Assembly (NCBI GenBank): GCA_028386065.3 | Contig: JAKUCV010007503.1 | Location: forward strand, 137,434-201,433 | Length of the DNA: 64,000 nt | DNA from: Turnera subulata | Taxonomy: Eukaryota > Streptophyta > Magnoliopsida > Malpighiales > Passifloraceae | Direction: 5' to 3' | Shown: in pieces, positions 9,171 to 54,870 of the stretch | Layout: the number at the start of each line of letters is the position of its first letter | Numbering within the stretch: position 1 is the first letter of the stretch | Translations under genes and position numbers: made by a program | Notes under the pieces: model-generated | Databases searched by the model: none | What the model was told of the DNA's origin: nothing | The model's input: only the letters and a program-made list of their open reading frames with translations

Positions 9171-9175
9171 AAGTT
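9171..9175. repeat. Target-site duplication, left copy (copia B)
   Basis: AAGTT directly precedes the LTR and recurs at 14442-14446 after the other LTR. Confidence 0.85.
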
Positions 9176-9369
9176 TGTTATAAATTATGTGTTTTAATGG
9201 AGAGAAAAGATTGGAGAAGGAGATGGATTTGATGAAGAAGAGGAAGATGGCGATGAGGAGGATAAAGATGATCAGCTTTCTACTTATTCTTCTGTAATGA
9301 TGTTGTATATAATATATAAGATACAAGAATGAGGGGTTAGGTATAACATTCAACACGTGTTTTATAACA
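9176..9369 (-). repeat. Copia B 3' LTR
   Basis: This 194 bp LTR differs from the copy at 14248-14441 at only a few positions by eye. The neighbouring polypurine tract makes it the 3' LTR of the minus-strand element. Confidence 0.9.
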
Positions 9370-9381
9370 CTTCCCCTTTGA
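9370..9381 (-). promoter_or_regulatory. Copia B polypurine tract
   Basis: The minus strand reads CAAAGGGGAAG directly upstream of the LTR start, as expected of the plus-strand DNA primer of a copia element. Confidence 0.75.
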
Positions 9382-9499
9382 ATGTTATTGTGTATTGGGT
9401 AGAATACGCATAGGGAGAACTGCCTCATTAAAAACCTTACCAAGAAAAACCCTGTGGGATAAAAACTTGGTGAAGGAAAAAAGAGTGCAGTGCGTATTC

Positions 9500-10900
9500 T
9501 ATTCTCCCTCATTTTGGCCTCTCTTGATCTCTTGTTGTCGTTGCATGCCAATAATCCTCTTGTCAACTTCTGGTGATGTAGGCCTTGTCTGATCACTTTG
9601 ATACATCATTACTCCTACTGGACAATGTGGATAGCTTTATCTTTATAATTTATCAATGGAGCATCTGTCCACTCCTCTTGCTTTTTTGTAGTCCCAATGA
9701 TGCAACAATTTTATGTATAAAGTTGTGGCAGATGTCCGGCTGTGCCTTTTGTGGATCAACTAGGGGATCGGCATCTGCAAGAACCAACTCTTCTTTCTTC
9801 GGGCTTACAGGATTAATATGACATCACATCTTTTATACCCCGAAGATAAGAGCAAATTCATATATTTCCAATAGGCTTAAGTCAAAAGCTTCAGGTTTTA
9901 TTTTCTTAGTAATATATATTGCACTTCAACAGGGTACTCCACGACCAATCTAATAGCACGGTATTTGGAAGCTTCTTCGGGAGTTCCAATTATAAATAAG
10001 TTTATCCATACTCAAAATGATTTAAATTATGTAAAGATCAATTCAATTCTCTTTTGTAATTTCCCGGGAATTAGTTGCTTCAGGCAACTCGGATCCTTCA
10101 GGGATCTTCATGTATATATCATGACTTATGGATCCAGAATAATAGGCTATAAAATCATTCATTAGATGCATTTCTAATTCTTTTTATATAATGCCAGACT
10201 TATCAAAATAACTGCATCCACCACAGGGGAGTGTATCTCCTCATAATTAAAAATAAGGTCGTTCGGGTAAAACCTTGTGCAACTGTGCTTTTATATCTCA
10301 TTTATATTTTCCGCACAAATACCCATTTACCGACCGATTAAATTTTACACCATCTGGTGTACGAACTACAGGTCCGAAAAATTACTCGCTTCACATGCAA
10401 GTCTAACACAGCCTTTAATTATATCTCATATATTTTGGCCAATCATACAACGTCTACTTTCATTAGTAGGTTCATGATCCTCATTTTAGCGCTATGTAAA
10501 GTAAATAAAAATTATATTCCGTCGGCGGTTATTTCATGTCGGTTCCATCTTATCTCTGACACTGTAATTGAGATCTCATCATATTCACTTATTTCAGGTA
10601 CCTGAGTTACTTCTGGAACTTTATCAATTTGTGTCAGAGAATCAACCTCTTCTGGGGAACTTTTAATTCAAACCTCTACTGGAGGTCATATTTTCTTACT
10701 GGGGCCATCTTATCTCATTTGCTCCTTTTTTTCTTTTGAGAATTTCTTTTCTTTTTGGAACCGAGTGTAATCTATAGATTCATTTGCATACTTATATTGT
10801 TCTTTAGGAACATCAATTGAAACAGGAGCATTTGCAGCTGGTATATGGTCACACTTAATTTAAATGTGTCTGACAATTGCATATCAATTTTCCTGCAAAT
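9500..10900 (-). pseudogene. Copia B reverse transcriptase / RNase H, decayed
   Basis: On the minus strand near 10880-10720 the phrases APVSIDVPKEQ and ANESIDYTRFQ mark the linker before the reverse transcriptase. Near 10600-10480 the phrases VPEISEYDEISI and NRHEI follow. Near 10135-10070 the phrase SHDIYMKIPEGSELPEA matches a well-conserved copia block, and further on GTPEE-type and LGLxIE-type wording survives near 9990-9850. Stop codons and frame changes occur throughout, and no YVDD box could be read. The element cannot encode its own enzyme. Confidence 0.7.
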
Positions 10901-10959
10901 GATTCATCTTCTTTTGAACTTCAGGTTCACATTAATTTATATGAGGATCAACATTCATA

Positions 10960-11730
10960 TATATTATGCATTACAACTAACTTGATCCATCTGCTTCTTT
11001 CTCCCCTTGATGTTGGGTATACACACATATCGAATTATCAATAAGCAAATCTTGCTATAAATGAATCTCCAATCTTTTAGTCAATAGTTTCAATAAAGAT
11101 GTGATTTGATGGAAATTACCCAACATCTATTCCCAACCTTCTTTAAGGTCCAGATTAACTATGATGTGGTAGAGCATAATATATTGTACAACTAACGGTT
11201 CGAAGATGGGAGATATTTTGTGACCAAGAACCAATGGGGAGATCTTATGATCTTATAATATCTTATTGGCTTGATGCACATTTACTGCGTATAAAATACC
11301 ATAGTTATATTTCATCAATGGTCCTGCAATCAATTGTCAATATGGCCCATATCTCTTTGGGTTTATTTCCAATGATATACATTCTCCATTGAAGAAACAT
11401 ACCAGCATTATCTAGACATATAGTCTAATAACATGAGTAGGGATATACACCTGCAAGTGGCTTAATCATTAGAACAAGTGCGCATAATGCCAACTTGCGT
11501 CACATAATAGACCATCTAGTCGATGCGTCGTAAAAATTACCTAGATGGTCAACACAGCGGATTTATCACTCCGCGTTCATATCCCAAATTTGCTGGTCTA
11601 GGCCATTCTCATCTTTTGATGGCCGTATTATTAATTTCGTAGCAAACAAACACATGGAAATTCATTGATTGTAAAACTTCTGGTTTTTCAATGAATGACC
11701 AAATAAATTTAGTGCATCATTATTGACCCG
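10960..11730 (-). pseudogene. Copia B GAG-pre-integrase and integrase, decayed
   Basis: The minus strand reads FGHSLKNQKFYNQ near 11703-11661, part of the GAG-pre-integrase domain. Then come degraded integrase blocks: LDNAG near 11400 (the DDE aspartate region), NISHLRTV near 11205-11180, and RRLGI followed by ARFADY near 11130-11020. The order matches copia integrases. Frameshifts and stops interrupt all of it. Confidence 0.7.
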
Positions 11731-11914
11731 GGATGGCCCAACCGGTCATGCCAAATAAAACAAGTAAACCAACTTTAAGTTGGTACCAGCTTTAGGCTGG
11801 TATATATGTGCCAGCTTCAGGCTGCTATTTTTACTAGCTTTTGATGGGTACCAGCTTCAGGCTGTTGTGTACCAATTTTAAGCTTATATCTGCCACTCAT
11901 GTCGAAAGGATTAG

Positions 11915-12162
11915 AATTATTGAGCAATAATTAATATAGTGGCAGACATTTCCATAAACAAATCCTCAAGGATTGTAAAGCTTTGGAATTTTCTGAAAAA
12001 TAATACAATCCACCGAAAAATCTTCTGGAACTTTTCGGGGACACCTGGTTGTCTATGCTCAGGTTATAAGGAGGGGGGAGATTGCTTAGGAAGATACAAC
12101 AAAATTCAAAGATACAGAAAATTCAACAAAGCAAAGAAACAAAAAACTCAACCAAGACAAAA
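11915..12162 (+). promoter_or_regulatory. Upstream region and leader of the 227-codon gene, copy 1
   Basis: A short stretch, TTGAGCAATAATT, matches the sequence about 295 bp upstream of copy 2 (47104-47116). It may mark the left edge of the shared unit. A purine-rich, A-rich leader (repeated CAACAAA/AACAAAA) directly precedes the ATG, as in copy 2. No clear TATA box is seen here, unlike copy 2. A 9 bp inverted pair TCTGCCACT / AGTGGCAGA flanks the left edge at about 11888-11896 and 11937-11945. Confidence 0.4.
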
Positions 12163-12846
12163 ATGCCTTCCCCAGCTACTGTTTTCTTTGTTGAGGGTGC
12201 CACTCTAGGAAGAAGAAATAGGTTAGCTTATAGTATGGTGAATGAGCAGCAAGAGGAATTATCGAATGATCTGGCGAGAATTCCTCGTTTAGTGTTTGTT
12301 GATGAACTATATTCATCTAGGTTCTTTGTAACTCTTATAGAAGAAACATTCTTCCTAGAGGACCAAAGCAATCTAAGGGCTTCCTTTTATGGCTCGGCTA
12401 ACTCTATTATGTTTTTCATATCTAATAGACTGCAGGAATTTCAGCTGGAGCCTTCATGTCAGATTTTAAATCAAAGCAGTTATTATCAGGTTTCCATGAT
12501 GGCTCGGAGCGTCCAAAGGGTGACTGGGTTACCACCTACATGGCCTAAGGTACGACTTCTACTATGGAATTGCAGGGGTGTAGCAAGAAGGTCTCAAGAC
12601 TTTGTGCGTACCTTAAGGGATCTGAAGAATCAGTACAAGCCTAATATGGTACTGATTACTGAGACTTTGTGGCAAGCAGGAGAGAATCATGGTGCGATTC
12701 CACTTCGTTTTCCTCCAATGAATCGGTTTGAGATACCTGGAGAAAAAAATATGGATGGTATGTGGTTCTCCTGGAACGACAGTGTTAGGGTCAACATTAA
12801 TGGTGAGGCTCAGAGTTTCAGGGTTAATGTTGTACCCAACCGTTAA
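12163..12846 (+). CDS. Conserved 227-aa protein: novel N-terminal domain plus truncated LINE-type endonuclease (copy 1)
   Basis: I do not recognise the first ~128 residues. They include VFFVEG, IPRLVFVDELYSSRFFV and SFYGxAN, which are shared with the copy at 47397-48080. From about residue 128 the protein reads WPKVRLLLWNCRG, NMVLITETLW and GMWFSWND. These resemble the first ~75 residues of the AP-type endonuclease of plant LINEs; the Asn and Glu motifs are present, but the later catalytic Asp and His region is absent. The start is placed at MPSPATV because copy 2 starts there; the frame itself runs open from 12082. The gene is intact although its copia host is wrecked, and it runs antisense to that host. 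Function is unknown; a nuclease is unlikely because the domain is incomplete. Confidence 0.75.
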   Translation: MPSPATVFFVEGATLGRRNRLAYSMVNEQQEELSNDLARIPRLVFVDELYSSRFFVTLIEETFFLEDQSNLRASFYGSANSIMFFISNRLQEFQLEPSCQILNQSSYYQVSMMARSVQRVTGLPPTWPKVRLLLWNCRGVARRSQDFVRTLRDLKNQYKPNMVLITETLWQAGENHGAIPLRFPPMNRFEIPGEKNMDGMWFSWNDSVRVNINGEAQSFRVNVVPNR

Positions 12847-13025
12847 ATAATTTCATTCAGCTTTATGTATGAGAACAATTACTCTATGTGGATGTTCTCA
12901 AGTAATGATCCCTTTAGTAATAATAATATGTATGTTTTCTTTTAGCCTTGTCTTTTGTCATAATCTTCATAGTCATAATAGTTGGAATAATTTCTTCCAT
13001 ATCCTCGGCAACATGCACTATACTA
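12847..13025 (-). other. Possible copia B gag remnant
   Basis: By position this should be the end of gag. The minus strand keeps a short YDYEDYDKRQG-like phrase that could come from the basic/zinc-knuckle part of gag, but no complete knuckle is visible. Confidence 0.3.
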
Positions 13026-13263
13026 TCTCATTCACTTCAAGGAATGGAGCAGAATCAATTTAATGGGATCCATAACAAAATAATTTGTTTAATTGCTGTA
13101 AACAAGAAAATTTTATACTCTTCAGGAGTTTATGCTCTTCAAGGTCTCATTCACTTCAAGGAATGGAGCAGAATCATTTTAATGGGATCCATAACAAAAC
13201 AATTTGTTTAATTGCTGTAAACAAGAAAATTTTATACTCTTCAGGAGTTTATGCTCTTCAGGA
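13026..13263. repeat. Tandem duplication of 119 bp
   Basis: The unit 13026-13144 (starting TCTCATTCACTTCAAGG) is followed by a second copy at 13145-13263 with about three changes. On the minus strand it contains repeated AGAGTATAAA and GAAGAGCAT phrases. It lies in the gag/leader part of copia B. Confidence 0.9.
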
Positions 13264-14247
13264 GCGTATGCATATGATCTTCTAGATCATAGTTACATTT
13301 GTGTTTTTTTTTTCACAGTATAGGTATGCAACAGTATTCATATACAGTAAGCATAATAATAGGGGTTTTTTTAATTATTATCTCCCCCTGTTTTCTTTTT
13401 TTTTTAATTCCTCTCCACATTTTTTTCTTTTCTCTCTTTTCCTTTCCTTTTCTCTCTTTTTCTCATTTTTTTTCTTTTCTCTCTCTTTTTCTCCCTTTTT
13501 TTTTTCAATTTTTTTTGACGGACTGGGCCGTGAACAGTACTGGCCCATGTGAAGCCCATGACAAAAAAAACCCAGGCCCGGCCCAGCCCGGTCCAGCCAG
13601 GTCCAGGATGCTACAGCCCACCAGGCACGGGTTATACCCGACCCAGACCACAGACCCGGTCGGGTCGTCTTCAACCCGACGCCTGCATACTTGCAGACGG
13701 TGTGAACGGCGAGGCTCACGAACGGCTGGAGACGACAACGCGACGAGGCGAGGACAGTGAGGTGACGACGCGGCAGACGACAGCGAGAGGTGCAGGAATA
13801 GGCATCCGACGTCGGTGGCGGCAGCGGGACGGTTGCTTCCGGTTTTGTCTCCTCGGCGCGGAGTCGCTGCTTGCGGCGGCGATGCTAGGAAGGAGGAAGG
13901 CGGGCGGAACGGCGTGCTGCAGACGGCGAGGAGGGGAGCAGACCCGACTGGTCTTGTCGGGTCGTCGGGCGTGGCCTTCGGGTTTCCACATCCCGGCGGC
14001 GCGTCCGGCAGCGGCAGTGGACGGGGAAGACGCCGTTCGGTCGGCGACAGCGAGAGGAGGCCCGCGGTGGTGGTGGTGACGCGAGAAACGGCACGGATCC
14101 GTTCGCCATGAACAGTAACCGTGGGGTGTTTGAAGGTGATGCACTGTGTGTTTTTTTGTTCTGGGTTTTCACGGTTTTCTTCATCCTTTAGTTGTTCAGA
14201 AAAAAAAAAAACTAAGCTCAGGTTAGGGACGATCATGGCTGATAACG
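13264..14247 (-). other. Copia B leader with CT-rich tract and GC-rich block
   Basis: From the minus strand this is the leader after the primer site. It contains a GC-rich block (about 13520-14110) with long chance frames on both strands and a CT-rich (GA on minus) tract at 13380-13510. Immediately inside the right LTR the minus strand reads TTATCAGCCATGATCG, a TATCAG-type copia primer site at about 14230-14245. No gag domain was recognised. Confidence 0.5.
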
Positions 14248-14441
14248 TGTTATAAATTATGTGTTTTAATGGAGAGAAAAGATTGGAGAAGGAGATGGAT
14301 TTGATGAAGAAGAGGAAGATGGCGATGAGGCGGATAAAGATGATCAGCTTTCTACTTATTCTTCTGTAATGATGTTGTATACAATATAGAAGATACAAGA
14401 ATGAGGGGTTAGGTATAATATTCAACACGTGTTTTATAACA
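14248..14441 (-). repeat. Copia B 5' LTR
   Basis: This is the partner of 9176-9369, 194 bp, with the same TG...CA ends. The primer site lies on its low-coordinate side. Confidence 0.9.
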
Positions 14442-14446
14442 AAGTT
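14442..14446. repeat. Target-site duplication, right copy (copia B)
   Basis: AAGTT matches 9171-9175. Confidence 0.85.
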
Positions 14447-14956: not shown

Positions 14957-15290
14957 CCGCAAACTGAACCTGTATTAGATCCGAGATTCAGTTTGTTCTT
15001 CAAATAAGCTCGATACTTCCATCTGCCATGGCTTTGAAATCAGCTTCTCTTGAGGATCTTGCCACAATTTGTTGTATTCATGATGCCCAGGAAAACTAGG
15101 TTGCGACCCAAGAACACAAGGCAGTACTCGATTGTCATTCAAGTTGCCGGCCCAATCAGCATCCGTGTATATTTGTAAGGTGCTGCTTTTTGATTCATAT
15201 AGAGCTGAAGGCCATGATTAGTTGTGTTCTTCATTTAGTATCGCAGTATTCGTTTTACAGCAGCGCTCTTCCTATGGATGCTGCATTAAA
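14957..15290 (-). pseudogene. Copia RNase H fragment
   Basis: The minus strand shows YESKSSTLQIYTDADWAGNL, the usual start of a copia RNase H domain, near 15205-15145. In changing frames it continues through RSTTGYCVFLG-like, SWASxKQ-like and STEAEFKAMAD-like blocks down to about 15010. Only this C-terminal part of pol is present, so it is a truncated relic. Confidence 0.75.
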
Positions 15291-17631: not shown

Positions 17632-17636
17632 CAATC
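17632..17636. repeat. Target-site duplication, left copy (gypsy D)
   Basis: CAATC precedes the D LTR and recurs at 36315-36319 after the other LTR. Confidence 0.9.
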
Positions 17637-18163
17637 TGTAACAGCCCGGGTAATTTTTAAGTTTTTACCGTCACCGTAAAATTTATTTTACAGTTATTTA
17701 CAATAAAATTAATCTTGGGTAATTAATTTATGGTAATTCGTGCATCGGATTTCGAAACCGAGCCTTGTCCCACGCTTGGGATTTTTCTGCGGATTTTCCG
17801 GACCAAGTTGGAATTTTTCGGGTCTAGGAATCTTCAGAAAAATCGGGTTTAACCCCGAGTTATCGGACTAGAAATAAAGTTAAGGGGGGTACATTAGTTA
17901 TTTTCTGGTCCGGACGGGACACGACTCACAAGCTGCACAGCACGAGGCAGCCGCCACTCACAGTGAAGCTTGTGAGTGGACTAGGCCACCCGTGAAAAAC
18001 CAGTAATTTGCCCGTGAACTCTGTCTTCTTCTCTTCCCCAGCACCATTTATTTTCATTCTGCCTACAAACTACCTCATTCTCTGCAATTCCCGTAACTTC
18101 CTCCTGCAACTAAACCGGATTATTATAAAAACAAAACAAAACACACAACCCACACACACCTGC

Positions 18164-43050: not shown

Positions 43051-43558
43051 TGTAAGCCCAAACAAGCTAAGAGGGGGGGTGAATTAGCTATTAAGAACTA
43101 ATTAAAAAAACTTTAAACAATAATAATTGTAGAATTAAAAGGAGAGAGAAAAGCAAACCGATTTATACTGGTTCACACACACACAACCCTTGTGGCTAAT
43201 CCAGTCCTCCGAGAGACTCTCTCAAAGATTCCACTATCACCGTTAAGCTTCCGGGTGCTTAACAAACCGTTTACAACTCCTGCATGAAGATTCCACACTT
43301 CAAGACTTTTCCCACAGAAAGAAGACCCTCTTCCTATGAATTTACTACAAGGGAACAATCCTCCCTTAAGATGTATGTTAATACAAATGTCACTCAAAAC
43401 AAGACTCTCTTTAAGAGTAGGTATGAGTACAAAATAAGCTCTATAAGGCAACTCTCAATTCTCAAAGATATTGGCTCATAAAAATGATATGTATGTATAA
43501 CAATGAATGCTTGAAATTGTAGAGAGTTGATCAAAGTGAAAGAGAGGTTTAAAGCCTC

Positions 43559-43566
43559 TATTTATA
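43559..43566 (-). promoter_or_regulatory. TATA box of copia H LTR (3' copy)
   Basis: GGCTATAAATAGAGG on the minus strand, repeated at 54074-54081 in the 5' LTR. It lies about 95 bp downstream of the palindrome array. Confidence 0.8.
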
Positions 43567-43661
43567 GCCCCAAAAGTGCACATAATCGTTGGGGACAAAT
43601 CTGAACACCTTTATACAAAGATAGCATGTTTGCTGAAAAAGATGTTTGATTCTAACGGCAC

Positions 43662-44066
43662 AACATCGATGTTGGTTATCACAACATCGATGTTTAGCCG
43701 TTGGATTTGAATAATTGAGCCAACGACTAGTACAACATCGATGATTGTTTTCTCAACATCGATGATTTAAGGCTCAACATTGATGTTTGTCGATCCAACA
43801 TCGATGTTTTGGCGCTTCGCAAAAAGTATGTTTGAAAACAATTGTCACAACATCGATGTTGAGAAGCCAACATCGATGTTTTCGCACTTCTGCCAAATTT
43901 TAAAAATACTTGAAAACATAGAACATCGATGTTTTTGACACAACATCGATGTTGCTTGATAGAACATCGATGTTGTGTTCAAAACATCGATGTTCTTGAG
44001 CCACGGCAAAAGTTATGATGTATTCAAATGCAATAATATCGATGTTGAACATAGAACATCGATGTT
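43662..44066. repeat. U3 array of AACATCGATGTT palindromes (14 copies)
   Basis: Copies start at 43662, 43683, 43734, 43755, 43776, 43797, 43849, 43869, 43922, 43942, 43963, 43983, 44035 and 44055. Neighbours within a group are 20 or 21 bp apart, with unrelated 8-9 bp spacers. Groups have two or four members. Variants are mostly single changes (AACATTGATGTT, AATATCGATGTT, ATCGATGAT). Position in U3, upstream of the TATA box, suggests a promoter/enhancer array. Confidence 0.9.
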
Positions 44067-44360
44067 TAGGGCTCAAGGAACAATTTTATGACATATATGA
44101 TTAATGAATGTATGAAGGAAAAACGATTTTTTGTTTGAGCTAATAACTTGGAAGATTTGAGTTACCATTTACAAGAAGTTCCTATAGATAATTCCTATAT
44201 TTCTTCATCCTTGTTGCTTCAATCCTTGTACTCCTTTCACTTTAGACTATTGCTTCTTTGATTGGTTTCTTTTTGCTTCAAAGGTTGTCATCAATTGAGC
44301 TATGGTCAATTTGTCATTATCAAAACCCTGAAATGAGACAATGAAGCATGAGTTCTAATA

Positions 44361-44377
44361 ATTTCCCCCTTTTTGAT
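44361..44377 (-). promoter_or_regulatory. Copia H polypurine tract
   Basis: The minus strand reads ATCAAAAAGGGGGAAAT immediately upstream of the 3' LTR. Confidence 0.8.
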
Positions 44378-44578
44378 AATGACAAACACATAGAAGTATA
44401 TGCCAAGTTTTATGAATTTATAAGTGAGGTTGATTCCCCCTAACTTGGTGCATATACTTCTTCTTATCATTTTCCCCCTTTTCTCATTAGCAAAAAGAAT
44501 TGGCAATAAGTAGCATTGTATTGAATTGGAAAAATAAATATAAATATAGCAAGAAAATCAAAGGTTAGAAAATGGGGT
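44378..44578 (-). other. 3' untranslated part of copia H
   Basis: Between the Transposase_32-like gene stop and the polypurine tract. A second purine run (GGGGGAAAATG on minus) lies at about 44469-44480. No coding sequence. Confidence 0.6.
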
Positions 44579-45865
44579 CTACGTCCCACCATTATTATCA
44601 TCATCATGGTGATCATCAATTGCTTCATTATCACCATCATCTTCTTCTTCATCATCATCCTCTTCCATAGGTGTGTAGTCCTCATCATCATCATCATCTT
44701 CAGCATCAAAATGGAGGTCTTGAAATGATGTGTGATACGGTGGAGGAGCGTAGTTGACATGAGCAAAATATGACAGAAGATCATGTCCTTGTCGTTGCAC
44801 TTCTGTGTCAATCCGCTCAATGGATCGTCCCAGGCCATGGACATATGATTGAAGATGGTGGAGAGAGGCAGCAATTGTTTCAAGGGTGACGACAGGAGCT
44901 TGGTCAGGAGCCAGAAGTGCGAGAAGATGCACTGCTTGAGGATCATCTGCTTGTTATGCGGTTGCCTGTTGTTCGGCTTCTTGGGCAGGTCGGTGAGCAC
45001 CCTCAGCTGCTTGTCCAGCTCGGAAGGTTGCATCAGAAATTGCCCAAATCTTGACTTCTGTGGTTAGAATTCCTACCAGCGAATTGATACCTGCACTTAT
45101 CAAAATGTTGGTGACCAAGAAAGCATAGGGCAGAGGATGGTCGTTGGTCGCATGTTCCGGCATGTGCATGAGGATGAATCGTGCCCAATTAATGGGTGCA
45201 CCATGAAGGATCGCGTGAAGAACTTTCTCATCTTCAGTGGTCAGAGTTGTGTGACTCCCGGCTCTTGGTTTGATCACCCGAGTGACAAGATAGAAAAGGA
45301 CCCTGTACTCCGGATTGATTGAGTGAATTGTGGGTCGACCGGAACGGTTTTTCTTCACCTCCTTGAAGCCAAGCTCAGCAAGAAGAGGGATTTCATAGTT
45401 AGTGAGAAAATGATCACCCCCATAGCCAGAGAGGTCGTGACCTTGGAATGGCAATTTGGCAACGGTTCCGAACTGCTCCAAGGTGATCTGAATAGTCTTC
45501 CCATTTACTTGTGCTGATAGGACATCTCCTTCTCGGGTGAGAGTTGAGTAGAAGGCTCGGATGAAATCGGCATTAAACTCATGCCTCCTACGGGTAACAA
45601 ACTCCCAAAGGTGAGACTCTTGAAGAAGTCTTGGAAGATTTGTGTATTGTTTTTCTTGAGGGTATTCATCGGGAAGGTATCTAGGTGATGCAATAGATCG
45701 TTTGGCAAAGAAGGTGAGGTAAGGGCTGAGCTGTGGTCGTGAGGTGAACCAAATGTTGGAACCCTCCACTGGATATTGATGACTAGAGGTTGAAGAGCTT
45801 CTTCTTTTGGTTGGGTGCTCTTTGATAGGGTCTTTCCCTTTGGTGCTTTTCTTTCCTCCAACCAT
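44579..45865 (-). pseudogene. Transposase_32-like (putative plant transposon protein) gene with one in-frame stop
   Basis: The frame starts at ATG 45865 (MVGGKKSTKGKD) and runs about 428 codons to 44579, broken only by TAA at 44954-44956. Residues about 75-265 resemble the plant Transposase_32 domain: HEFNADFIRAFYSTL, ITLEQFGTVAKLPFQG, RVLFYLVTRVIKPRAGSHTT, LHAILHGAPINWARFIL and LPYAFLVTNILISAGI. After the stop the frame goes on with SLHHLQSYVHGLGRSIERI and a very acidic end (DDDDDEDYTPMEEDDDEEEDD). The stop may be a recent mutation. The biochemical role of this family is not known to me; despite its name I see no transposase catalytic motif. A TATA box and palindrome array lie upstream. Confidence 0.7.
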
Positions 45866-46116
45866 GGTGAAAAGAAGAGGGTGTTAAAAAAAATGAGATG
45901 AGATGGAGTGGAAGGAGAGAAAGAGTGAAGAGTGATAGTTGTGGAAAGAGAGGAAGATAGGTATATGAAGAAGAGAAGAGAGGAGATAAGTGTATGAGCA
46001 GATATGGATAAGAGATAAGAATGTGTAGAGATGAGAAATGAGATGAATATGTGTGGAGATAAGATAAGTGATGAGTATGAGCAGAGGTAGGTAAAGAGGA
46101 GAAGAGTAGAGATGGG

Positions 46117-46124
46117 TATTTATA
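46117..46124 (-). promoter_or_regulatory. TATA box of the Transposase_32-like gene
   Basis: CCCTCTATAAATACCC on the minus strand, about 250 bp upstream of the ATG and about 70 bp from the nearest palindrome. The 5' leader between is CT-rich on the minus strand. Confidence 0.7.
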
Positions 46125-46191
46125 GAGGGGAGCCAAAAAGAACCCGTTGTGAACAGTAACGACTTTTTTTTTTTTTGGAAAACAACGGCAG

Positions 46192-46694
46192 AACATCGAT
46201 GTTTAGCCGCTCCAATGGCTATATTTTTTAAACTGCAACGGTCCAACATCGATGTTTCAAAAGGAACATCGATGTTTTATGCACTCGGCCGAAGGAGGGA
46301 AACATGCACATTGGTTCAACATCGATGTTATATACCTAAACATCGATGTTGTTTGCGTTTGGCCAAAAATGATTGTTACCAAAATAATCCAACATCGATG
46401 TTGTAAGTGGAACATTGATGTTTTATGTTCTCGGCAAACGAAAAAAACAAAAGCTCATGGTTAAGCATCGATGTTTCATACCTCAACATCGATGTTCTTT
46501 ACATTCGGCCGTTTTGATGGTTTTATCAAAATGGTCAAACATCGATGTTGGTGATCTACACATCGATGTTGTATTGAGTATTTTGAAGACTTACCTGAAC
46601 ATTGATATTGTGATACGCAACATCGATGTTTTAAACATTCGGCCAATTGTGAATTGCACCCAACATCGATGTTAGTAAGGACAACATCGATGTT
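46192..46694. repeat. Internal array of AACATCGATGTT palindromes (15 copies) between two divergent genes
   Basis: Copies start at 46192, 46245, 46265, 46318, 46339, 46391, 46411, 46464, 46485, 46538, 46559, 46598, 46619, 46662 and 46683. From 46245 they form seven pairs, each 20-21 bp apart. The first five pairs repeat every 73-74 bp, the last two about every 60-64 bp. A CGGCC-like motif follows most second members. The array lies about 70 bp from the TATA box of the minus-strand gene and 610 bp from that of the plus-strand gene. Confidence 0.9.
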
Positions 46695-47168
46695 GCTCTG
46701 TTTGCTTAGAAAAGTCCTTTTTGTTCAACCTTGTTTGTGATCCAAAATGAGGTGTACCTGCAAAACAGAGTTAGTAGAGTCTCGGGTGCTCAAGTTAGCA
46801 AAGATAATACACGAGCTTTAGTAAGATAAAAAACATGTGTGACAGTTTTAAGGGTAGTAAGAAAGCCTCTGCCCCTAAGAAATATTTTCTTGGATTTCTA
46901 TCCTGCCAGGATGAGGAGGTGTCTCCTTGTCGTAAGTACACCGGGCTCGAGAAAATGTCTTGTCAGTTGAACTTTGGTTGCCTCTGATGCCCAGTTAATC
47001 AGACAGTAAATCCCGTGATGAATCAATAATGCAATCAAAACCACGATTGTCAAAAAATGGAAATCTTTGATAATCGGAAAAATTTGTAAGGTTGCAGACA
47101 TTGATTGAGCAATAATTTAACTAATTGGCAAGTTTTTCAAAAAGAAGATTCTTGAAAATCGAAGTAGT
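46695..47168 (+). other. Spacer upstream of the 227-codon gene, copy 2
   Basis: No coding sequence. Contains TTGAGCAATAATT at 47104-47116, shared with the upstream side of copy 1. Confidence 0.5.
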
Positions 47169-47280
47169 TTGGAAGGGTCTTCTCCTGAACATTATTTACG
47201 ATACTTCAAAGATGGGTAGGGGTCACCTCCTGAACAATCGCTGGATGCTTCAGAAATTGGTAGGGGTCACCTTCTGAGAG
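47169..47280 (+). promoter_or_regulatory. Three 44 bp repeats upstream of the TATA box
   Basis: Units starting TTGGAAGGGTCTTCTCCTGA (47169), TGGGTAGGGGTCACCTCCTGA (47213) and TTGGTAGGGGTCACCTTCTGA (47257) lie directly upstream of the TATA box. They are plausible promoter elements. Confidence 0.6.
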
Positions 47281-47303
47281 AAGAAGCAACTCAGTTGTGT
47301 TTC

Positions 47304-47311
47304 TATAAATA
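47304..47311 (+). promoter_or_regulatory. TATA box of the 227-codon gene, copy 2
   Basis: TTTCTATAAATAGGCA lies 93 bp upstream of the ATG, a normal plant promoter distance, and is followed by an A-rich leader. Confidence 0.7.
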
Positions 47312-47396
47312 GGCATACGATAGAACTCATTAGACACAAAAAATTATAAGCCAATTTCAGCAAGAGAGTTTAGCAAAAAAAAAATCAAAACCAAGA

Positions 47397-48080
47397 ATGC
47401 CTTCCCCTTCCACTGTCTTTTTTGTTGAGGGTGTAGCCGTAGGCAGGAGAAACCGATTAGCCTATAGTATTGTAAGTGAGCCGTCTGAGGATCTGCCTAA
47501 TGAACTAGGTAGAATTCCTCGCTTAGTATTTGTTGATGAGCTCTACTCTTCTAGGTTTTTTGTCACACCCATGGAAGAGACTATTTTTCTTGAGAGTCAA
47601 AGCCCACTTAGAACATCCTTCTATGGTATCGCCAATGCCACATTGTTCTTCATATCTGAAAGGCTTGAGAGTTTTCAAATGGAGTCTACCCATCAAACCT
47701 TAGAACAAGGAAGTTATTACCGTCTTTCAATGACTGCTCAGAGTGCTTCACGAGTCCCTGGCTTACCGCCAACTTGGCCAAAGGTTCGCCTGCTCGTGTG
47801 GAATTGCAGCTGAATCATGAGGCACTCTCAAGATTTTACAAGAATGTTGAGAGACCTGAATAACCAGTACAAACCGAACATGGTTCTGCTCACCAAGACA
47901 TTATGGCAACCTGGCGAAAACCACGGGTTCATCCCTCTCCGTTTTCCATCAGTGAACCAGTTTGAAATCCCTGGCCAGAATAACTCGGGTGGAATGTGGT
48001 TTGCATGGAATGATAATGTTAGGGTTAATATTGTTAATGACCCTAATAGCTTCTCTGTAACTACTGTGCCAAATCGTTAA
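47397..48080 (+). pseudogene. 227-codon gene, copy 2, with one in-frame stop
   Basis: It is the same length as the copy at 12163-12846 with no indels. Shared blocks include VFFVEG, RRNRLAYS, IPRLVFVDELYSSRFFVT, LPPTWPKVRLL and NQYKPNMVL. Codon 139 is TGA (47811-47813), directly after WNCS, where copy 1 has WNCRG. The Glu of the LINE endonuclease-like LITET motif is Lys here (LLTKT). Many differences between the two copies are synonymous. The gene lies antisense in copia H, with its own TATA box and a polyadenylation signal (AATAAA, 48198-48203). Whether it is still expressed as two pieces, read through or dead cannot be told. Confidence 0.75.
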
Positions 48081-48197
48081 GAGCTAGATTATGATGGGTA
48101 TGTATGTTTGTTTAAAAAAATATGTGTGATTGTATTGTAATATAAATAATGTAAGCGTATGTGTGTGTTTGTAAGCGTGATTGTAAAATATGAAATC

Positions 48198-48203
48198 AAT
48201 AAA
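48198..48203 (+). terminator. Polyadenylation signal of the 227-codon gene, copy 2
   Basis: AATAAA lies 118 bp after the stop codon, in a T/G-rich context usual for plant 3' ends. Confidence 0.55.
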
Positions 48204-48265
48204 ATCCTACGTGTTTGTGTTAATTTAGCATGTACCAATGTAAAATTTAATTGGTTTAGAGAACT

Positions 48266-48310
48266 TACCTGAACATCGATATTGTGATACTCAACATCGA
48301 TGTTGTGATC
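48266..48310. repeat. Isolated pair of AACATCGATGTT palindromes
   Basis: AACATCGATATT and AACATCGATGTT, 21 bp apart. The preceding ACTTACCTG and the GTGATAC spacer match the pair at 46590-46630, so this looks like a duplicated edge of the internal array. The segment between them (46700-48256) could have been inserted. Confidence 0.7.
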
Positions 48311-48395
48311 ATGTTGCCAAAATTCTGGATTCGCCTTCAGTTCTACTTTGTTCCCCCTATCATTTTGCCTAATTGGCCGTCATAATATGAGATCT

Positions 48396-51300
48396 TCAAG
48401 GAGGGTTGCACATGCCCAAATCCAGCCTTATTTTTGTGAATTGATCTTCTTTTAAAGGCTTGGTGAAGATATCTGCAAGTTGCCCATCGGTCTTGACAAA
48501 ATCAAGTGTTATATCTTTCTTTTGCACATGATCGCGAATAAAATGATGTCTAATCTCTATATGCTTTGTTCGTGAATGCTGGATAGGATTCTTGGTGAGA
48601 TTAATGGCACTAGTACTATCACAATAAATAGGAATTGACTCAAATTTCAAACCATAGTCTTCAAGTGTATGTTTCATCCACAAAACTTGAGCACAACAAG
48701 AACCAGCAGCTATATATTCAGCTTCCGTGGTGGAAGTAGCTACGGAATTTTGCTTCTTACTAGACCATGAGACTAATGCTTGACCAAGAAATTGACATGT
48801 ACCACTAGTGCTCTTTCTATCTAAGGTACTCCCGGCAAAATCCGCATCGGAATAACTAGTGAGAGTAAATGAACTCACTTTGGGATACCAAAGACCAAGG
48901 TTAGGAGTCCCTTTAAGATACTTAAAAATGCGTTTAATAGCACGTAAATGAGACTCTTTTGGACAGGCTTGAAATCGTGCACATAGACATACACCAAACA
49001 TGATGTCCGGTCTAGTAGCTGTTAGATAAAGCAAACTTCCGATCATACCTCTATATAGCTTGATATCCACATCTTTACCTTCTTCATCCTTATCAAGCTT
49101 AGTGGTAGTGCTCATGGGTGTTGGGCTAATCTTAGCACCATCCATCCCAAATCTCTTGAGTAACTCCTTTGTATACTTGGCTTGGTTAATAAATATGCCC
49201 CCTTCAAGTTGTTTTACTTGAAATCCAAGGAAATAAGTTAACTCCCCCATGGAGCTCATCTCAAATTCACTTTGCATGGATTTTTCAAATTCCTTACACA
49301 AAAACTCATTAGTAGCACCAAAAAGAATATCATCCACATATATTTGAACAATGAGTAATTCATGTACATGAGATTTTACAAACAAAGTAGTATCAACCTT
49401 TCCTCTTGTAAAACCACTAGAAACAAGGAAGTTACTTAGCCTTTCATACCAAGCTCTTGGAGCTTGTTTCAAACCATAGAGTGCCTTTTTGAGTTTAAAC
49501 ACATGATGAGGAAACTCATGATTTTCAAAACCGGGGGGTTGCTCAACATACACTTCCTCCATGATGTAGCCATTTAAGAATGCACTCTTGACATCCATTT
49601 GAAACAATTTAAATGCTTTATAAGATGCATATGCAAGAAGCATGCGAATAGATTCTAATCTAGCAACAGGAGCAAATGTTTCATCAAAATCAATGCCTTC
49701 TTCTTGATTATAACCTTGAGCAACAAGTCTAGCTTTGTTTCTCACAACAATACCATTTTCATCTAACTTATTCCTAAAGACCCACTTAGTACCAATAACG
49801 GGATGATCATGAGGTCTAGGAACAAGATTCCAAACTTGACTTCTCTCAAATTGATTTAACTCCTCTTGCATAGCAATAACCCAACTTTCATCATTAATAG
49901 CATCTTTAACGTTTTTAGGCTCAACTTGTGATAAGAATGCAATATGACCATTTAAATTATGTAAAGATGATCTAGTGATTACCCCTTTTGAGGGATCTCC
50001 AAGAATTGCACTAGGAGAATGTCCCCTTGGTGGCTTGACTTCAATTGTTCCCTTATCCTTCTCTTGTGCATCAGAAGATTGAGAAGAAGAAGTATCATCA
50101 TTTTTGGGTTCACTTGTACTTGTTGGTGAAGAACCATGATCCAATGAAGTTTGGCTAGTTGAAACGTCAACATTCATGCTTGGTGAAGGTCTACGTGTGA
50201 AATCTATTATATCATCGTCTCTATCACCATTTAAATCAACTTCATCAAATACAACATGCATGGATTCTTCAACAAGAAGAGTCCTTTTGTTATACACACG
50301 ATAGGCCTTACTAGTAATAGAGTAACCAAGAAATATACCTTCATCCGATTTAGCATCAAACTTACCGAGATTGTCTTTGGTATTAAGAATATAGCATTTG
50401 GATCCAAATACCTTAAAGTAATCAATATTTGGTTTTCTACCATACCACAGTTCATAAGGAGTTTTCTTGAAGATAGGCCTTAAGGAGACTCTATTTAGCA
50501 CATAACACGCGGTATTAACCGCTTCGGCCCAAAAGTATGAAGGTATATCATTTTCATTTAACATAGTGCGTGCCATTTCTTGCAATGTCCGATTTCTTCT
50601 CTCAACAACCCCATTTTGTTGAGGTGTTCTAGGAGTAGAAAAGGTGTGTTCAATGCCACATTGTTCACAATAATGATCAAACAAAAGATTATCAAACTCA
50701 CCACCATGATCACTTCTAATTTTAGAAATCTTATAACCTTTTTCATTTTGCAAACGTCTAACAAGGCATCCAAACTCATACAAAGCATGATCTTTACTAG
50801 CAAGAAATATAACCCAAGAAAATCTAGTGTAATCATCAACAATAACAAAAGCATAATTCATACCACCAAGACTAGTTGTCCTCATAGGACCAAAAAGATC
50901 AAGATGCAAGAGTTCAAGAGGTCTAGAAGTTGTTACCATATTTTTGGCTTTGAAGGAGCTTTTAACTTGCTTTCCAAGTTGACAAGCTCTACATACTCCA
51001 TCTTTTTCAAATTTGAGCTTGGGTAGACCCTTAACAAGGTCCTTCTTGGATAGTTTTGAAATTAATTCCAAATTGACGTGTCCAAGCCTTCTATGCCATA
51101 AAATAGGTGTTTCCATCTTTGCACTAAAACACTTAACATCATTGTTAGCAACTTCTTTCAGGTTGATTGAGTAAAGATTTCCGATCCTTTTACCAACAAA
51201 AAGTAAATGATCATCAAAACATCTAGTAACCATGCACTTAGTAGATTCAAAGGTGACTCTATATCCCTTATCACATAGTTGACTTATACTTAAGAGATTG

Positions 51301-51425
51301 AACTTTAAGTTATCGACAAGAAGCACATGCTCAATAGTAGGATTAGAACCAATATCACCAATACCATGTATTTTACCTTTAGAGCTATCACCAAAGGTTA
51401 CTTTACCTTTACCTTTACCTTTCAA
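48396..51425 (-). CDS. Copia H pol: GAG-pre-integrase, integrase, reverse transcriptase, RNase H
   Basis: This is an intact 1009-codon frame. GAG-pre-integrase starts at [10 protein letters not shown] (residues about 109-160), with the cysteine pair CRACQLG. The integrase shows [17 protein letters not shown] and [15 protein letters not shown], giving all three catalytic acids. A Pro/Ser-rich linker with [20 protein letters not shown] follows. Reverse transcriptase (about 520-770) has [37 protein letters not shown] and the catalytic YVDDILFG. RNase H (about 860-1000) has [24 protein letters not shown] and [12 protein letters not shown]. Its frame is the same as gag, so an older gag-pol fusion was interrupted by stops at 51537, about 51501 and about 51441. 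The upstream protease motif reads DSRCSRHM rather than DSGCSRHM. Confidence 0.93.
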
Positions 51426-51536
51426 AGATGAGAACTTTGATTAATCACCCGTCATATGACGTGAACATCTACTATCAAGTACCCACTCATCTTTTTCGTC
51501 CTACAAAAATAAACAAGATTTAGGTACCCACTCAAT
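51426..51536 (-). pseudogene. Copia H protease active-site segment, with stops
   Basis: In the pol frame: DEKDEWVLDSRCSRHMTGD, then a stop, then SKFSSLKG. The catalytic DSG of the copia protease is DSR here. Stops at about 51501 and 51441 separate it from gag and pol. Confidence 0.75.
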
Positions 51537-52862
51537 CTAGGGTCCTTGAATGTTAGCTCTAGTACCTTTAGGTACCCAAACATATTTTACATGTGAATTC
51601 TTACTCCTGAACATGCAAGTACGAATTCCATGACCATGTTTACCACAATGATAGCATGTGATAGAAGGAATATAAGAATGATCATGAACACTACCATGGT
51701 ATGATTGTTGCCTTCCACCATAGTTATATAACTTAGCAAGGTTATGAAATGATCTAGCTCTATATGCTTGTGCTCTTGAATTGTAGTCATGAGATTTTGC
51801 ATTGTATGCAAATGATCTAGCATGTAGCGTAACATCATTGGTTTGTGTTCTAGCATTGTAAGCATATGATCTTCTACCATGTGTGCTTGGTTTAGTATAA
51901 TAAGATCCTCCATTTCTAGCATTGTATACATGTGATCTTGCACTATTATCATTTGATCTAATATTATGGGAATGTGGTTTTCTATTATTGGCATACAATC
52001 TAGCATAATGGAATCTACTACTACTTTCACATGATCTTGCTTTTTGAGCATTTCTATGATGAATAGGTGATTTTGTATTATGAACATGTGATCTAGCATG
52101 ATGAGTTGAAGATGAGGCACCATGTTCATGTGTCTTAGCATTTAGTATAATAGGTTTGACCTCATATGGCACATTTAATGCTCCTAATCCTTCCTTTTGA
52201 ATTGGATTTCTTTGTTGTCCTAAGAGAAGATTAAGATTATCTCTACCATTTGTAAACTTCTCAAATGTTTTCTTTAAATCTTCAACTTGAGACTTAAGAG
52301 ACTCATTCTCTTTTTCCAATACAACACAAGCATATACATTAGAGCATACATTCTCATTAAGTTCATTGTAAGATATATTAAGAGCATGCTTTTCTTCTTC
52401 AAGAGTCACAAGTTGTTTTTTATACTTTTGATTCATTTTTAAGGACTTCTCAAGTTCTTCGTGCAAATTAATGAACGCATCATGTAATTCTTCAAATGTA
52501 AAGTCATTAGAAGAATCATTTACCTCATCATCTTCAAGAGCCATGAAGCGTATATGTGCATCTTCATCACTATCCGAGTCACTTGATGATGTGTCATCTT
52601 CATCCCATGCCAACATGATTTTCTTGCCTGTGCTCTTTGAAGAATCAAGTCTTGCTTTTTTTTTGTATGGGCACTCCGATTTGATATGACCGGGTTTGTT
52701 GCATTTATAGCAAACAATCGGATTTTTCTTTGTATCTTCATATTTAGAGGTGCTCTTCATATTCCTTCCTTTTTGCAATCTCTTCTTCTTGAGGAACTTC
52801 ATGAACTTCCTTGTGACTAGAGCCGTATCATCATCTCTGTCACTTGCATCCTCTTCGGAATC
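51537..52862 (-). pseudogene. Copia H gag C-terminal part: two zinc knuckles and a repetitive basic linker
   Basis: This is the continuation of gag in the same frame. A 421-codon open stretch starts at 52802, after the stop at 52863. The first knuckle is CYKCNKPGHIKSEC (residues about 31-44). A coiled-coil-like Glu/Lys/Leu-rich part follows (about 100-180). Next comes a long His/Asn/Arg/Ser-rich linker with degenerate repeats such as ARSHVYNAR and ARSFAYNAK (about 225-375), then a second knuckle CYHCGKHGHGIRTC (about 386-399). The acidic, Ser-rich segment TSSSDSDSDEDAH lies after the first knuckle. Confidence 0.8.
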
Positions 52863-53510
52863 TTAAATCTTCAAGGCAAGGTCTTTCTTCTTTTCTACTT
52901 TGCCTTCAAACTTCATTCCATAAGCTATCAAAGAACCTATTAGCTCATTGTAGGATAGGACATTAAGATCTTTTGCCTCTTCAATAGCCGTGACTTTGGA
53001 TTCCCACTCCTTACTCAAGGATCTTAATACTTTAGTAACTTTCTCCTTATCATTTATGGTCTTACCAAGGCTCACAAGGTTATTGCATAGAGTTGAAAAC
53101 CTAGTACTCATATCATAGATGGACTCATTAGACTTCATTGTAAAAAGCTCATATTCTCTCATAAGCCTATTGGTCTTGGATTCTTTTACTTGGTTTGTTC
53201 CTTCATGAGTTGTCAATAAGAGTGTCCAAATTTCATGAGCACTCTTACAAATTCTAATTCTCTCAAATTCTTCTTTACTTAAGGCACCTAGTAAAGAGTT
53301 TCTAGCTGTGGCATCTAGAGTGCCTTTCTTCTTCTCATTCTCACTCCAATCGCTCAAAGGCTTAGGTGGCCTACTCCAACCACTCTCAACAATCTCCCAA
53401 ATTTCTAAACCTTGACCCTCTAGAAATATTTGCATTCTAACTTTCCAATAGTCAAAGTTTATACCATCAAAGAAAGGAGCTTTGTGGATATTATACCCCT
53501 CAAAAGCCAT
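52863..53510 (-). pseudogene. Copia H gag N-terminal part (copia-type gag polypeptide), ended by a premature stop
   Basis: Starts at ATG 53510 (MAFEGYNIHKAPFFDG), about 55 bp from the LTR. FDYWKVRMQIFLEGQG, GALSKEEFERIRICKSAHEI, TNRLMREYELFTMKSNESI and SKEWESKVTAIEEAKDL place it in the copia gag (UBN2-type) family, which forms the particle shell. TAA at 52863-52865 ends the frame at 215 residues. The same frame continues beyond it with DSEEDASDRDDDTA and the zinc knuckle ORF. Without this single stop gag would be one protein of more than 600 residues. Confidence 0.9.
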
Positions 53511-53549
53511 GATCTTTACTCAAGGAGATTAATCCTAAACAAAGAGACC

Positions 53550-53565
53550 TTGCTCCGCTACCAAT
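53550..53565 (-). promoter_or_regulatory. Copia H primer-binding site
   Basis: The minus strand reads ATTGGTAGCGGAGCAAGG from the LTR border inward. Confidence 0.8.
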
Positions 53566-54870
53566 TGTAAGCCCAAACAAGCTAAGAGGGGGAGTGAATT
53601 AGCTATTAAGAACTAATTAAAAAAACTTAAAACAATAATAATTGCGGAATTAAAAAAAGAGAGAAAAGCAAACTGATTTATACTGGTTCACACACACACA
53701 ACCCTTGTGGCTAATCCAGTCCTCCGAGAGACTCTCTCGAAGATTCCACTATCACCGTTAAGCTTCCGGGTGCTTAACAAACCGTTTACAACTCCTGCAT
53801 GAAGATTCCACACTTCAAGACTTTTCCCACAGAAAGAAGACCCTCTTCCTATGAATTTACTACAAGGGAACAATCCTCCCTTAAGGTGTATGTTAATACA
53901 AATGTCACTCAAAACAAGACTTTCTTTAAGAGTAGGTATGAGTACAAAATAAGCTCTATAAGGCAACTCTCAATTCTCAAAGATATTGGCTCATAAAAAT
54001 GATATGTATGTATAACAATGAATGCTTGAAATTGTAGAGAGTTGATCAAAGTGAAAGAGAGGTTTAAAGCCTCTATTTATAGCCTCAAAAGTGCATATAA
54101 TCGTTGGGGACAAATCTGAACACCTTTATACAAAGATAGCATGTTTGCTGAAAAAGATGTTTGATTCTAACGGCACAACATCGATGTTGGTTATCACAAC
54201 ATCGATGTTTAGCCGTTGGATTTGAATAATTGAGCCAACGACTAGTACAACATCGATGTTTGTTTTCTCAACATCGATGATTTAAGGCTCAACATTGATG
54301 TTTGTCGATCCAACATCGATGTTTTGGCACTTCGCAAAAAGTATGTTTGAAAACAATTGTCACAACATCGATGTTGAGAAGCCAACATCGATGTTTTTGC
54401 ACTTCTGCCAAATTTTGAAAATACTTGAAAACATAGAACATCGATGTTTTTGACACAACATCGATGTTGCTTGATAGAACATCGATGTTCTTGAGCCACG
54501 GTAAAAGTTATGATGTATTCAAATGCAATAACATCGATGTTGAACATAGAACATCGATGTTTAGGGCTCAAGGAATAATTTTATGACATATATGATTAAT
54601 GAATGTATGAAGGAAAAACGATTTTTTGTTTGAGCTAATAACTTGGAAGATTTGAGTTACCATTTACAAGAAGTTCCTATAGATAATTCCTATATTTCTT
54701 CATCCTTGTTGCTTCAATCCTTGTTGCTTCAATCCTTGTACTCCTTTCACTTTAGACTATTGCTTCTTTGATTGGTTTCTTTTTGCTTCAAAGGTTGTCA
54801 TCAATTGAGCTATGGTCGGTTTGTCATTATCAAAACCCTGAAATGAGACAATGAAGCATGAGTTCTAACA
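53566..54870 (-). repeat. Copia H 5' LTR
   Basis: Partner of 43051-44360. The palindrome array starts at about 54177 and ends at about 54562, with 13 copies. TATA box at 54074-54081. A 15 bp local duplication (TTGCTTCAATCCTTG) at about 54708-54737 is not in the other LTR. The frames at 53688-53966 and 54242-54571 are LTR shadows. Confidence 0.93.
54177..54562. repeat. U3 array of AACATCGATGTT palindromes, 5' LTR (13 copies)
   Basis: Same arrangement as 43662-44066, except that one 20 bp unit is missing, so the last group of four has become three. The copy that reads ATCGATGAT at 43734 is intact here. Confidence 0.9.

Follow-up and report, generated by a model that had tools for sequence, protein, structure and literature searches.

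The DNA analysed, here called the window, is a stretch of 64,000 nt from Turnera subulata (assembly GCA_028386065.3, contig JAKUCV010007503.1, positions 137,434 to 201,433 of the forward strand) that resembles plant DNA and is rich in retrotransposons. It contains two related frames, which we term copies of an antisense accessory ORF (aORF):

12163..12846, + strand: aORF copy 1, 227 codons, intact
47397..48080, + strand: aORF copy 2, of the same length as copy 1, with an in-frame TGA at 47811-47813

A preliminary description of this DNA had listed two 227-codon frames of equal length that align without indels. Alignment confirmed that both have 684 bases and are gap-free, with identities of 70% (protein) and 68.7% (DNA); copy 1 is intact, copy 2 is not. 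Analysis of the whole frame by NG86, stop codon excluded, gave a pS of 0.765 and a pN of 0.180, the bootstrap interval of pN/pS being 0.18-0.30, and 44 of the 62 fourfold sites differ. The differences at codon positions 1, 2 and 3 number 49, 32 and 133, and 69 codons changed in meaning (stop included) against a random expectation for 214 substitutions of 127.5 +/- 5 (minimum 111 in 1000). Among the other five reading frames a reduced ratio (0.26) was seen in the complementary frame only. The block IPRLVFVDELYSSRFFVT carries nine silent codon changes and no amino-acid change, exactly as claimed earlier, while in the block GENHG to FEIPG the four changing codons were recovered and the silent ones number 13 instead of 14. 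The view that the copies are old and yet conserved as protein agrees with these values (pS 0.77, pN 0.18). Residues 1-128 of copy 1 are acidic (pI 4.9) and the remainder is basic (10.5).

Copy 1 lies within the following element:

9176..14441, - strand: carrier 1, a non-autonomous copia-type element with a Bianca-like primer site, 5.27 kb
9176..9369, - strand: 3' LTR of carrier 1, 194 bp
9370..11824, - strand: decayed pol of carrier 1, mostly read by eye
12065..12070, + strand: TATA-like box TATAAG, 98 bp before the copy 1 ATG, a pattern match only
14234..14247, - strand: primer-binding site of carrier 1, CGTTATCAGC..., of the half-tRNA-Ile type
14248..14441, - strand: 5' LTR of carrier 1, 194 bp

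The two LTRs of carrier 1 show 4 differences over 194 bp, and the target site duplication AAGTT is present on both sides (9171-9175 and 14442-14446). The primer site was assigned with what we take to be the tRNA-Ile sequence. A half-tRNA-Ile primer site is described for Bianca copia elements in PMC6317226, and carrier 1 is called Bianca-like by this site, the pol being too decayed for an RT/RH/INT phylogeny. An RT piece at 10046-10183 matched RVT_2 at an E value of 0.11, which is below the cut-off, and the rest of pol was read by eye from known motifs. A search with the SIRE pol against 137 pieces of carrier 1 returned as its best result a match of 15 residues on the wrong strand (z 6), which is unconvincing, so the copia pol of carrier 1 is partly read by eye. 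Copy 1 sits between the 5' LTR and the pol relic, as placed by eye. It had been described as intact inside a copia element with a wrecked pol, and the intact frame, the RVT_2 piece and the by-eye reading are in line with this. A stretch near the 5' LTR (13534-14170) has a GC content of up to 67% and a CpG o/e of 1.1 in an otherwise AT-rich element, and is possibly captured sequence. Just outside carrier 1, at 14978-15217 (- strand), a copia RNase H-like fragment of another element was read by eye; it showed a short, weak match to the SIRE pol and no Pfam hit.

Copy 2 lies within an element of another kind:

43051..54870, - strand: carrier 2, a Sirevirus (SIRE) copia element with an env-like ORF
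43051-44360 (3') and 53566-54870 (5'), - strand: LTRs of carrier 2, 22 mismatches in 1290 aligned bases
44363..44370, - strand: terminal polypurine tract AGGGGGAA, 10 bp from the 3' LTR
44441, 44479 and 48358: three further AGGGGGAA tracts
44957..45865, - strand: env-like ORF, PF20167 (Transposase_32)
46192..46694: upstream of env, 14 copies of the palindrome AACATCGATGTT in an array, each with at most 1 mismatch
47304..47309, + strand: TATA box TATAAA, 93 bp before the copy 2 ATG
48198: AATAAA after copy 2
48399..53519, - strand: gag-pol, a single frame with in-frame stops

Carrier 2 has gag, INT and RT domains besides the env-like ORF, whose PF20167 domain also occurs in an Athila additional ORF (PMC11728184). 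The four AGGGGGAA tracts agree with the polypurine character of Sireviruses, a variant with a final A having been reported for ToRTL1 and Tnd-1. The palindrome AACATCGATGTT is found a further 14 times in the 3' LTR, 13 times in the 5' LTR and twice near 48290 in the linker; at up to 1 mismatch the window holds 44 matches, 43 of them inside carrier 2, with 0.18 expected. Such polypurine tracts and palindromic repeats are described for Sireviruses in PMC2829016. The AACATCGATGTT arrays extend over 43662-44066, 46192-46694 and 54177-54561, and of the 26 spacings measured in the array of the 3' LTR and the one upstream of env, 24 are 20-21 or 51-53 bp, nearly 2 and 5 turns of the helix (vector strength 0.89 at 10.5 bp), which could suit a protein that binds the DNA from a single side. 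Copy 2 is located between pol and the env-like ORF and is antisense to carrier 2, the orientation being given by gag-pol and the polypurine tract. The gene is thus antisense to its host in both window elements, and these are copia elements of different kinds (Sirevirus and Bianca-like), as the preliminary description had it.

Relatives of both copies were searched for in the host assembly (518.7 Mb, 7125 contigs), where the first-look candidates, which are not copy counts, numbered 7955 for copy 1, 6800 for the N-terminal piece of copy 2 and 3893 for a second gene, ORF1, treated below; the best 150 were scored each time. Among the best 150 of the 7955 the identity to copy 1 was 91-100%, and 110 had no internal stop while 40 had one. 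Among the best 150 of the 6800, about 140 matched copy 2 at 84-100% and constitute a SIRE-type family; the rest comprised one match at 80%, one at 78% and eight at 74%. Although copy 2 is broken, 11 of 14 copy-2-type relatives fetched are intact.

In the copy-1 family (30 copies including copy 1, 435 pairs) the median dS was 0.125 and the median dN 0.019. The pol relic beside the gene gave a median p-distance of 0.131 (29 copies, 406 pairs, leaving out L018, which has no matching flank), and in the aORF of those 29 copies (406 pairs) the value was 0.024 for codon positions 1 and 2 taken together and 0.075 for the third. In this family, the relic diverges about like silent sites and about five times faster than codon positions 1+2. 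The relatives were ranked by protein similarity, which biases dN downward; we judged this bias too small for the sixfold gap between dS and dN, and a sample reached through ORF1, given below, is free of it.

Ten 10-kb stretches around copy-1 relatives were read. Seven carry LTR-like repeats of 177-497 bp around the gene that are 95.6-98.9% identical, two have runs of N, and in L040 the repeat lies inside the relic instead. The right-hand LTR is preceded by GTGCTGATAACG (CGTTATCAGCAC on the element strand) in 6 of the 7 related elements, the seventh being unreadable, and by the side of the primer site the aORF is antisense in element 1 and in 6 of 7 relatives. In none of the ten stretches did tblastn find a match to carrier 2 proteins (gag, pol, env-like; E<=1e-4) or to the gypsy proteins of the window (E<=1e-3). 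The copy-1 family thus appears to be non-autonomous and of high copy number, with varied LTRs and the antisense aORF as its shared intact gene.

Of 29 copy-1 family members examined, 28 have a TATAA box 59-105 bp ahead of the ATG, and the aORF is probably transcribed from a TATA promoter of its own. The 14-mer ATTGAGCAATAATT occurs upstream of both window copies, at 11919 and 47104, and these are its only two exact matches in the window. The probability of such a common word against other windows is about 0.03-0.04; at up to 2 mismatches there are 3 matches with 2.0 expected, and a 12-base core is present in 14 of 29 copy-1 relatives, copy 1 included. The sharing of ATTGAGCAATAATT between the copies is a hint only. 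Heat-shock elements before the gene were considered and dropped, GAANNTTCNNGAA being found once in the window with 1.2 expected.

To compare lineages, 50 aORF frames were assembled, 30 of the copy-1 type and 20 further ones that were fetched; 37 of the 50 are intact at exactly 227 codons and 13 are broken or have no ATG or stop. The intact frames represent at least five lineages, each with exactly 227 codons. Between the lineages pS was 0.67-0.85 and pN 0.12-0.16, the silent sites being near saturation. Within types, pN/pS was 0.159 for copy 1, 0.345 for the SIRE type, where constraint is weaker, and 0.068 for the L059/60 type (a single pair); dN is lowered by the sampling, since similarity to the query guided the choice of most copies. 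The dN/dS comparison proposed earlier was run at several depths and nowhere gave a ratio near 1: pN/pS was 0.16, 0.35 and 0.11 within three families and 0.165-0.21 between the five lineages. These substitution patterns show the aORF to be old and under purifying selection and mark it as a real, selected protein gene of the elements.

The aORF tree showed that the SIRE type joins L057, which has a SIRE-like carrier (support 0.82), while L055, whose carrier L063 is also SIRE-like, is placed across a well supported split from the SIRE type, with the L059/60 type (support 0.35). The position of L055 indicates that the gene tree follows the carriers only in part, and since silent sites are saturated we draw no firm count of transfers from it.

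Selection on the antisense transcript, for instance in dsRNA-based control, with the protein secondary, was weighed against these data. A regulatory role of antisense transcription has been suggested for genes of this sort (PMC7264820), but it is the codons that are conserved here, third positions and noncoding flanks diverging freely, and intact copies keep their length to the codon, so that we hold this explanation to be very unlikely.

A partial origin was found for the C-terminus of the protein:

12562..12819, + strand: LINE-EEP-derived part of copy 1, residues 134-219
47796..48053, + strand: LINE-EEP-derived part of copy 2, placed by alignment to copy 1

Pfam scans of the C-termini indicated PF03372, which was matched by 7 of 22 close C-termini (best E 0.013) and by 14 of 19 diverse ones (best E 8e-4; two other families matched one member each), with listed scores of 12.7-14.2 bits that lie under the Pfam curated cut-off of 24.5 bits. 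An earlier PF03372 scan of the window protein had ten controls, which matched no family. Unrelated pieces gave single Pfam hits (Diacid_rec 0.1, HTH_MCM7 0.049, PCMT 0.13); single hits at an E of about 0.1 are noise, and the EEP assignment is accordingly based on the scan of diverse C-termini together with a LINE profile, and not on the earlier scan. This profile was made from 20 EEP domains in frames of 1150-1400 aa of the same genome, picked among 150 that were scored. Three of the 20 frames (about 1350 aa) were scanned and all three carry EEP, RVT_1, zf-RVT and RVT_3, which is the make-up of a plant LINE ORF2. An hmmsearch with the profile matched 18 intact aORFs at E values of 9e-15 to 9e-12, aligning residues 134-219 with profile positions 1-85, while 360 control sequences with a shuffled C-terminus reached 6e-4 at best; hhalign of the aORF against the LINE EEP gave a probability of 98.4% (columns 133-213 versus 1-79). 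By these profile comparisons, residues 134-219 are shown to correspond to the first ~85 residues of the plant LINE ORF2 endonuclease (EEP).

Of the 225 profile positions the first ~85 are matched, and some 8 residues beyond that point the protein stops. None of the lineages tested has the rest of the catalytic domain, and no complete EEP domain was found. All 19 diverse C-termini share the motifs WNCRG and TET without change, though some broken or sampled copies have them altered. On the question raised earlier, whether the gene might be just a piece of a known transposon polyprotein, the answer is divided: it is not merely such a piece, but its C-terminal ~85 residues do derive from LINE ORF2. 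The LINE-derived part is cut at a fixed point, is conserved in this truncated form, and is joined to a part that matches nothing known. The window itself holds a LINE-type ORF1 at 5346-6581 (- strand; DUF4283 and zf-CCHC_4, 411 aa), after which no long EEP/RT frame was seen in positions 1-5346.

LINE EEP domains bind and nick DNA. The residues N136 (in WNCRG) and E167 (in TET) lie at what we take to be the positions of the first two residues of the EEP metal site, and their invariance in the 19 diverse C-termini would suit a protein with a part in integration or in the choice of target, where the EEP half would help as a cofactor that binds or nicks DNA. However, the protein stops after ~85 of 225 EEP positions and so has none of the other catalytic residues, the E is a K in the broken copy 2, a few other copies change WNCRG, and LTR elements already own an integrase; we consider such a role unlikely.

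The N-terminal 133 residues of the aORF match nothing known. The full protein had no relative at E<=0.01 in a set of 5.8 billion proteins (86 candidates), and residues 126-227 had none at E<=10 (6 candidates); the set was taken as mainly prokaryotic and metagenomic and as uninformative on other plants. IMG/VR, taken to be of the same composition, contained no relative of the aORF and none of the SIRE pol either. Searches of the PDB by sequence or profile gave chance-level hits only, NCBIfam and PHROGs had no match to the aORF, and PF04195, the Retand TRP28 domain, had no hit in the proteins scanned. AlphaFold run from three window rows gave a pLDDT of 31, too low for the model to be of use. 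In the literature searched, which took in few subscription journals, no EEP-bearing antisense gene in LTR elements was found.

The aORF was found in four sorts of carrier: a Sirevirus copia, a Bianca-like copia with a wrecked pol, a pol-less relative of the Sireviruses, and elements with gypsy LTRs and no recognisable gag-pol. It is antisense in every carrier of readable orientation, as judged outside the window by the side of the primer site in L061 and L062 and by the env-like ORF in L063. L061 has LTRs of ~3.1 kb and an interior of 2.6 kb with ORF1 and the aORF, beside which no further gene and no pol were recognised. Its LTR end and primer site (GGGGCGTTTCA...TTTGGTAGCGGAGC) are nearly equal to those of an element of the window:

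17636-36314: gypsy element with gag PF03732, RVP_2, SH3_Tf2-1 and a weak Chromo hit (E 0.028)

Gypsy gag, protease and integrase had no tblastn match in the 13 stretches read; the absence of gag-pol was judged from frame lengths and from tblastn, for which SIRE and gypsy proteins of the window were the queries. Further along the window, 38039-38709 is a tandem duplication of ~210 bp units that are 77-94% identical. L062 (C5128:164501-173500) is a relative of the Sireviruses with gag-like ORFs, palindrome repeats, and ORF1 and the aORF in antisense; tblastn with the carrier 2 proteins found no pol, and by its gene content L062 is a gag-bearing non-autonomous form. L063 is a SIRE-type remnant, composite on its right side, with the aORF and an env-like ORF that shares 57% identity with its counterpart in carrier 2. 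The earlier proposal of a mobile or hitchhiking gene with a selected function, and not copia debris, is supported by the pN/pS tests and by the gypsy-LTR carrier, which adds a second superfamily.

The env-like ORF adjoins copy 2 in carrier 2 and is paired with the aORF again in L063, an arrangement that might point to a module for spread between cells or hosts, akin to envelope or movement accessories. The env-like ORF of carrier 2 had, however, no match in L031-L040, L061 or L062, and no membrane segment was seen by eye in the aORF protein, which makes this the most improbable of the explanations weighed.

ORF1 encodes ~125 aa and lies ~1-1.3 kb upstream of the aORF on the same strand in two carriers; the versions of L061 and L062 are 48% identical (E 1.8e-34), with pI values of 10.0 and 9.1. 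No domain was recognised in it, the only hits being COG3_N (0.1) and COG6_N (0.026) at noise level. Of the best 150 of 3893 candidates scored in the genome, 141 are stop-free, and in 9 of 10 copies chosen via ORF1 an aORF was present 1.2-1.3 kb downstream. The pN/pS of ORF1 was 0.097 (55 pairs of 11). For aORFs reached through ORF1 and not by their own similarity it was 0.106 (10 pairs of 5), the set being L061 and the 4 of 9 that match gap-free at full length, two of those four with one stop; some of the other five ORF1-linked aORFs have frame breaks. ORF1 was not found in the window, the copy-1 stretches or L063, which indicates that the module does not always consist of two genes.

A host gene family repeatedly captured by retrotransposons, with selection acting on the host gene and the copies as passengers, was also considered. 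Plant LTR elements are known to capture host genes (PMC7264820), and the individual insertions are young (LTR pairs 95.6-98.9% identical in the seven copy-1 relatives), so that much of the aORF divergence predates them. Nevertheless, selection is visible within one element family against the neutrally diverging relic of the same elements, and among the gypsy-LTR copies too; every longer stretch of readable structure, among the 13 read, is an LTR element; and the TATA boxes travel with the aORF, unlike in mRNA capture. Repeated host capture is accordingly regarded as quite unlikely.

We give an even chance to the reading that LTR retrotransposons have in the aORF a LINE-derived antisense accessory gene, the product of which benefits the carrier that encodes it, perhaps by countering silencing. 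Beside the aORF, pol decays at about the silent rate, and elements without gag-pol keep the gene; the product therefore would not be simply borrowable and would favour the carrier. Likewise, non-autonomous families keep the aORF while losing gag-pol, which can be supplied in trans, so that the benefit should fall preferentially on the encoding copy or family. The protein, built of half an EEP fold and an acidic N-terminal part, would bind nucleic acid without being a nuclease; a direct nuclease role agrees badly with the cut EEP domain. Its product would keep its own element transcribed or unsilenced in the manner of VANC, which we take to be the name of the VANDAL anti-silencing proteins to which the aORF is likened; alternatively, it would mark its own RNA or DNA for the machinery of another element. 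Anti-silencing or recruitment of its own nucleic acid would fit best. As an alternative to the carrier-favouring reading, the benefit may be shared in trans, or selection may act mainly in unseen autonomous relatives.

A wider form of the carrier-favouring reading, which we advance tentatively and hold to be rather doubtful, is that a LINE-derived antisense kit (the aORF, alone or together with ORF1) moves between copia and gypsy elements and lets non-autonomous families without gag-pol flourish. Such families would have outsourced their replication and kept a cis-preferential anti-silencing or recruitment kit of their own, as the sole genes still under selection. That a family with a drifting pol relic keeps the aORF suggests that the gene should pay its own carrier, and this would be a sharp and testable constraint on its function.

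The elements Grande, RIRE2 and Retand belong to the gypsy group. Additional ORFs in antisense, placed between pol and the 3' LTR, are described in maize Grande (gene23), rice RIRE2, Silene Retand (TRP28) and bean PvRetro13; Grande is given a promoter of its own and the known antisense ORFs are held to be probably nuclear or regulatory (PMC7264820, PMC11963269). The aORF resembles them as an antisense gene inside plant LTR elements that is conserved in many copies of a family. It differs in occurring in copia and gypsy-LTR elements, in its LINE EEP fragment, in having no TRP28 match and in being kept without pol. A position between pol and the 3' LTR holds for copy 2 only, copy 1 lying between the 5' LTR and the pol relic and L061 having no recognisable pol.

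The env-like eORF-3'F of SIRE elements, present between pol and the 3' LTR in 74% of them (PMC6317226), is likewise an extra gene at that site, but it is in sense orientation and encodes other proteins, unlike the antisense aORF. The SIRE survey counted ORFs of at least 250 codons (PMC6317226); the aORF, with 227 codons counted from the ATG, is shorter than that, so genes of this kind may escape notice.

Vandal aORFs protect from silencing (PMC11728184). VANC of VANDAL would act alike if our main hypothesis is true, as an element-encoded and element-specific relief; the two are likened by proposed function alone, and VANDAL is a DNA transposon, unlike the LTR carriers of the aORF. Compared with the EEP of plant LINE ORF2, residues 134-219 align to the first ~85 residues, including the WN and the E of the TE motif, but no lineage tested has the remaining ~140 residues of the domain, in which the other catalytic positions lie.

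In bdelloid rotifers, ORF3 genes (DEDDy exonuclease, GDSL esterase) are common to unrelated retroelements and are considered more likely exchanged than captured from the host (PMC5408684). The aORF is similar as one accessory gene in very different classes of retroelement; unlike the rotifer ORF3, several of which have enzymatic domains, it is antisense, found in a plant, and carries a truncated enzyme domain. Antisense accessory genes in plant LTR elements (PMC7264820) and the exchange of accessory ORFs between unrelated retroelements (PMC5408684) were thus already known. According to the 2020 review, the antisense ORFs show no likeness to other TEs, and most are of unknown origin (PMC7264820); the gene described here is an antisense gene with a part-origin that can be traced to a LINE endonuclease fragment, with measured constraint, and with carriers of both copia and gypsy-LTR type.
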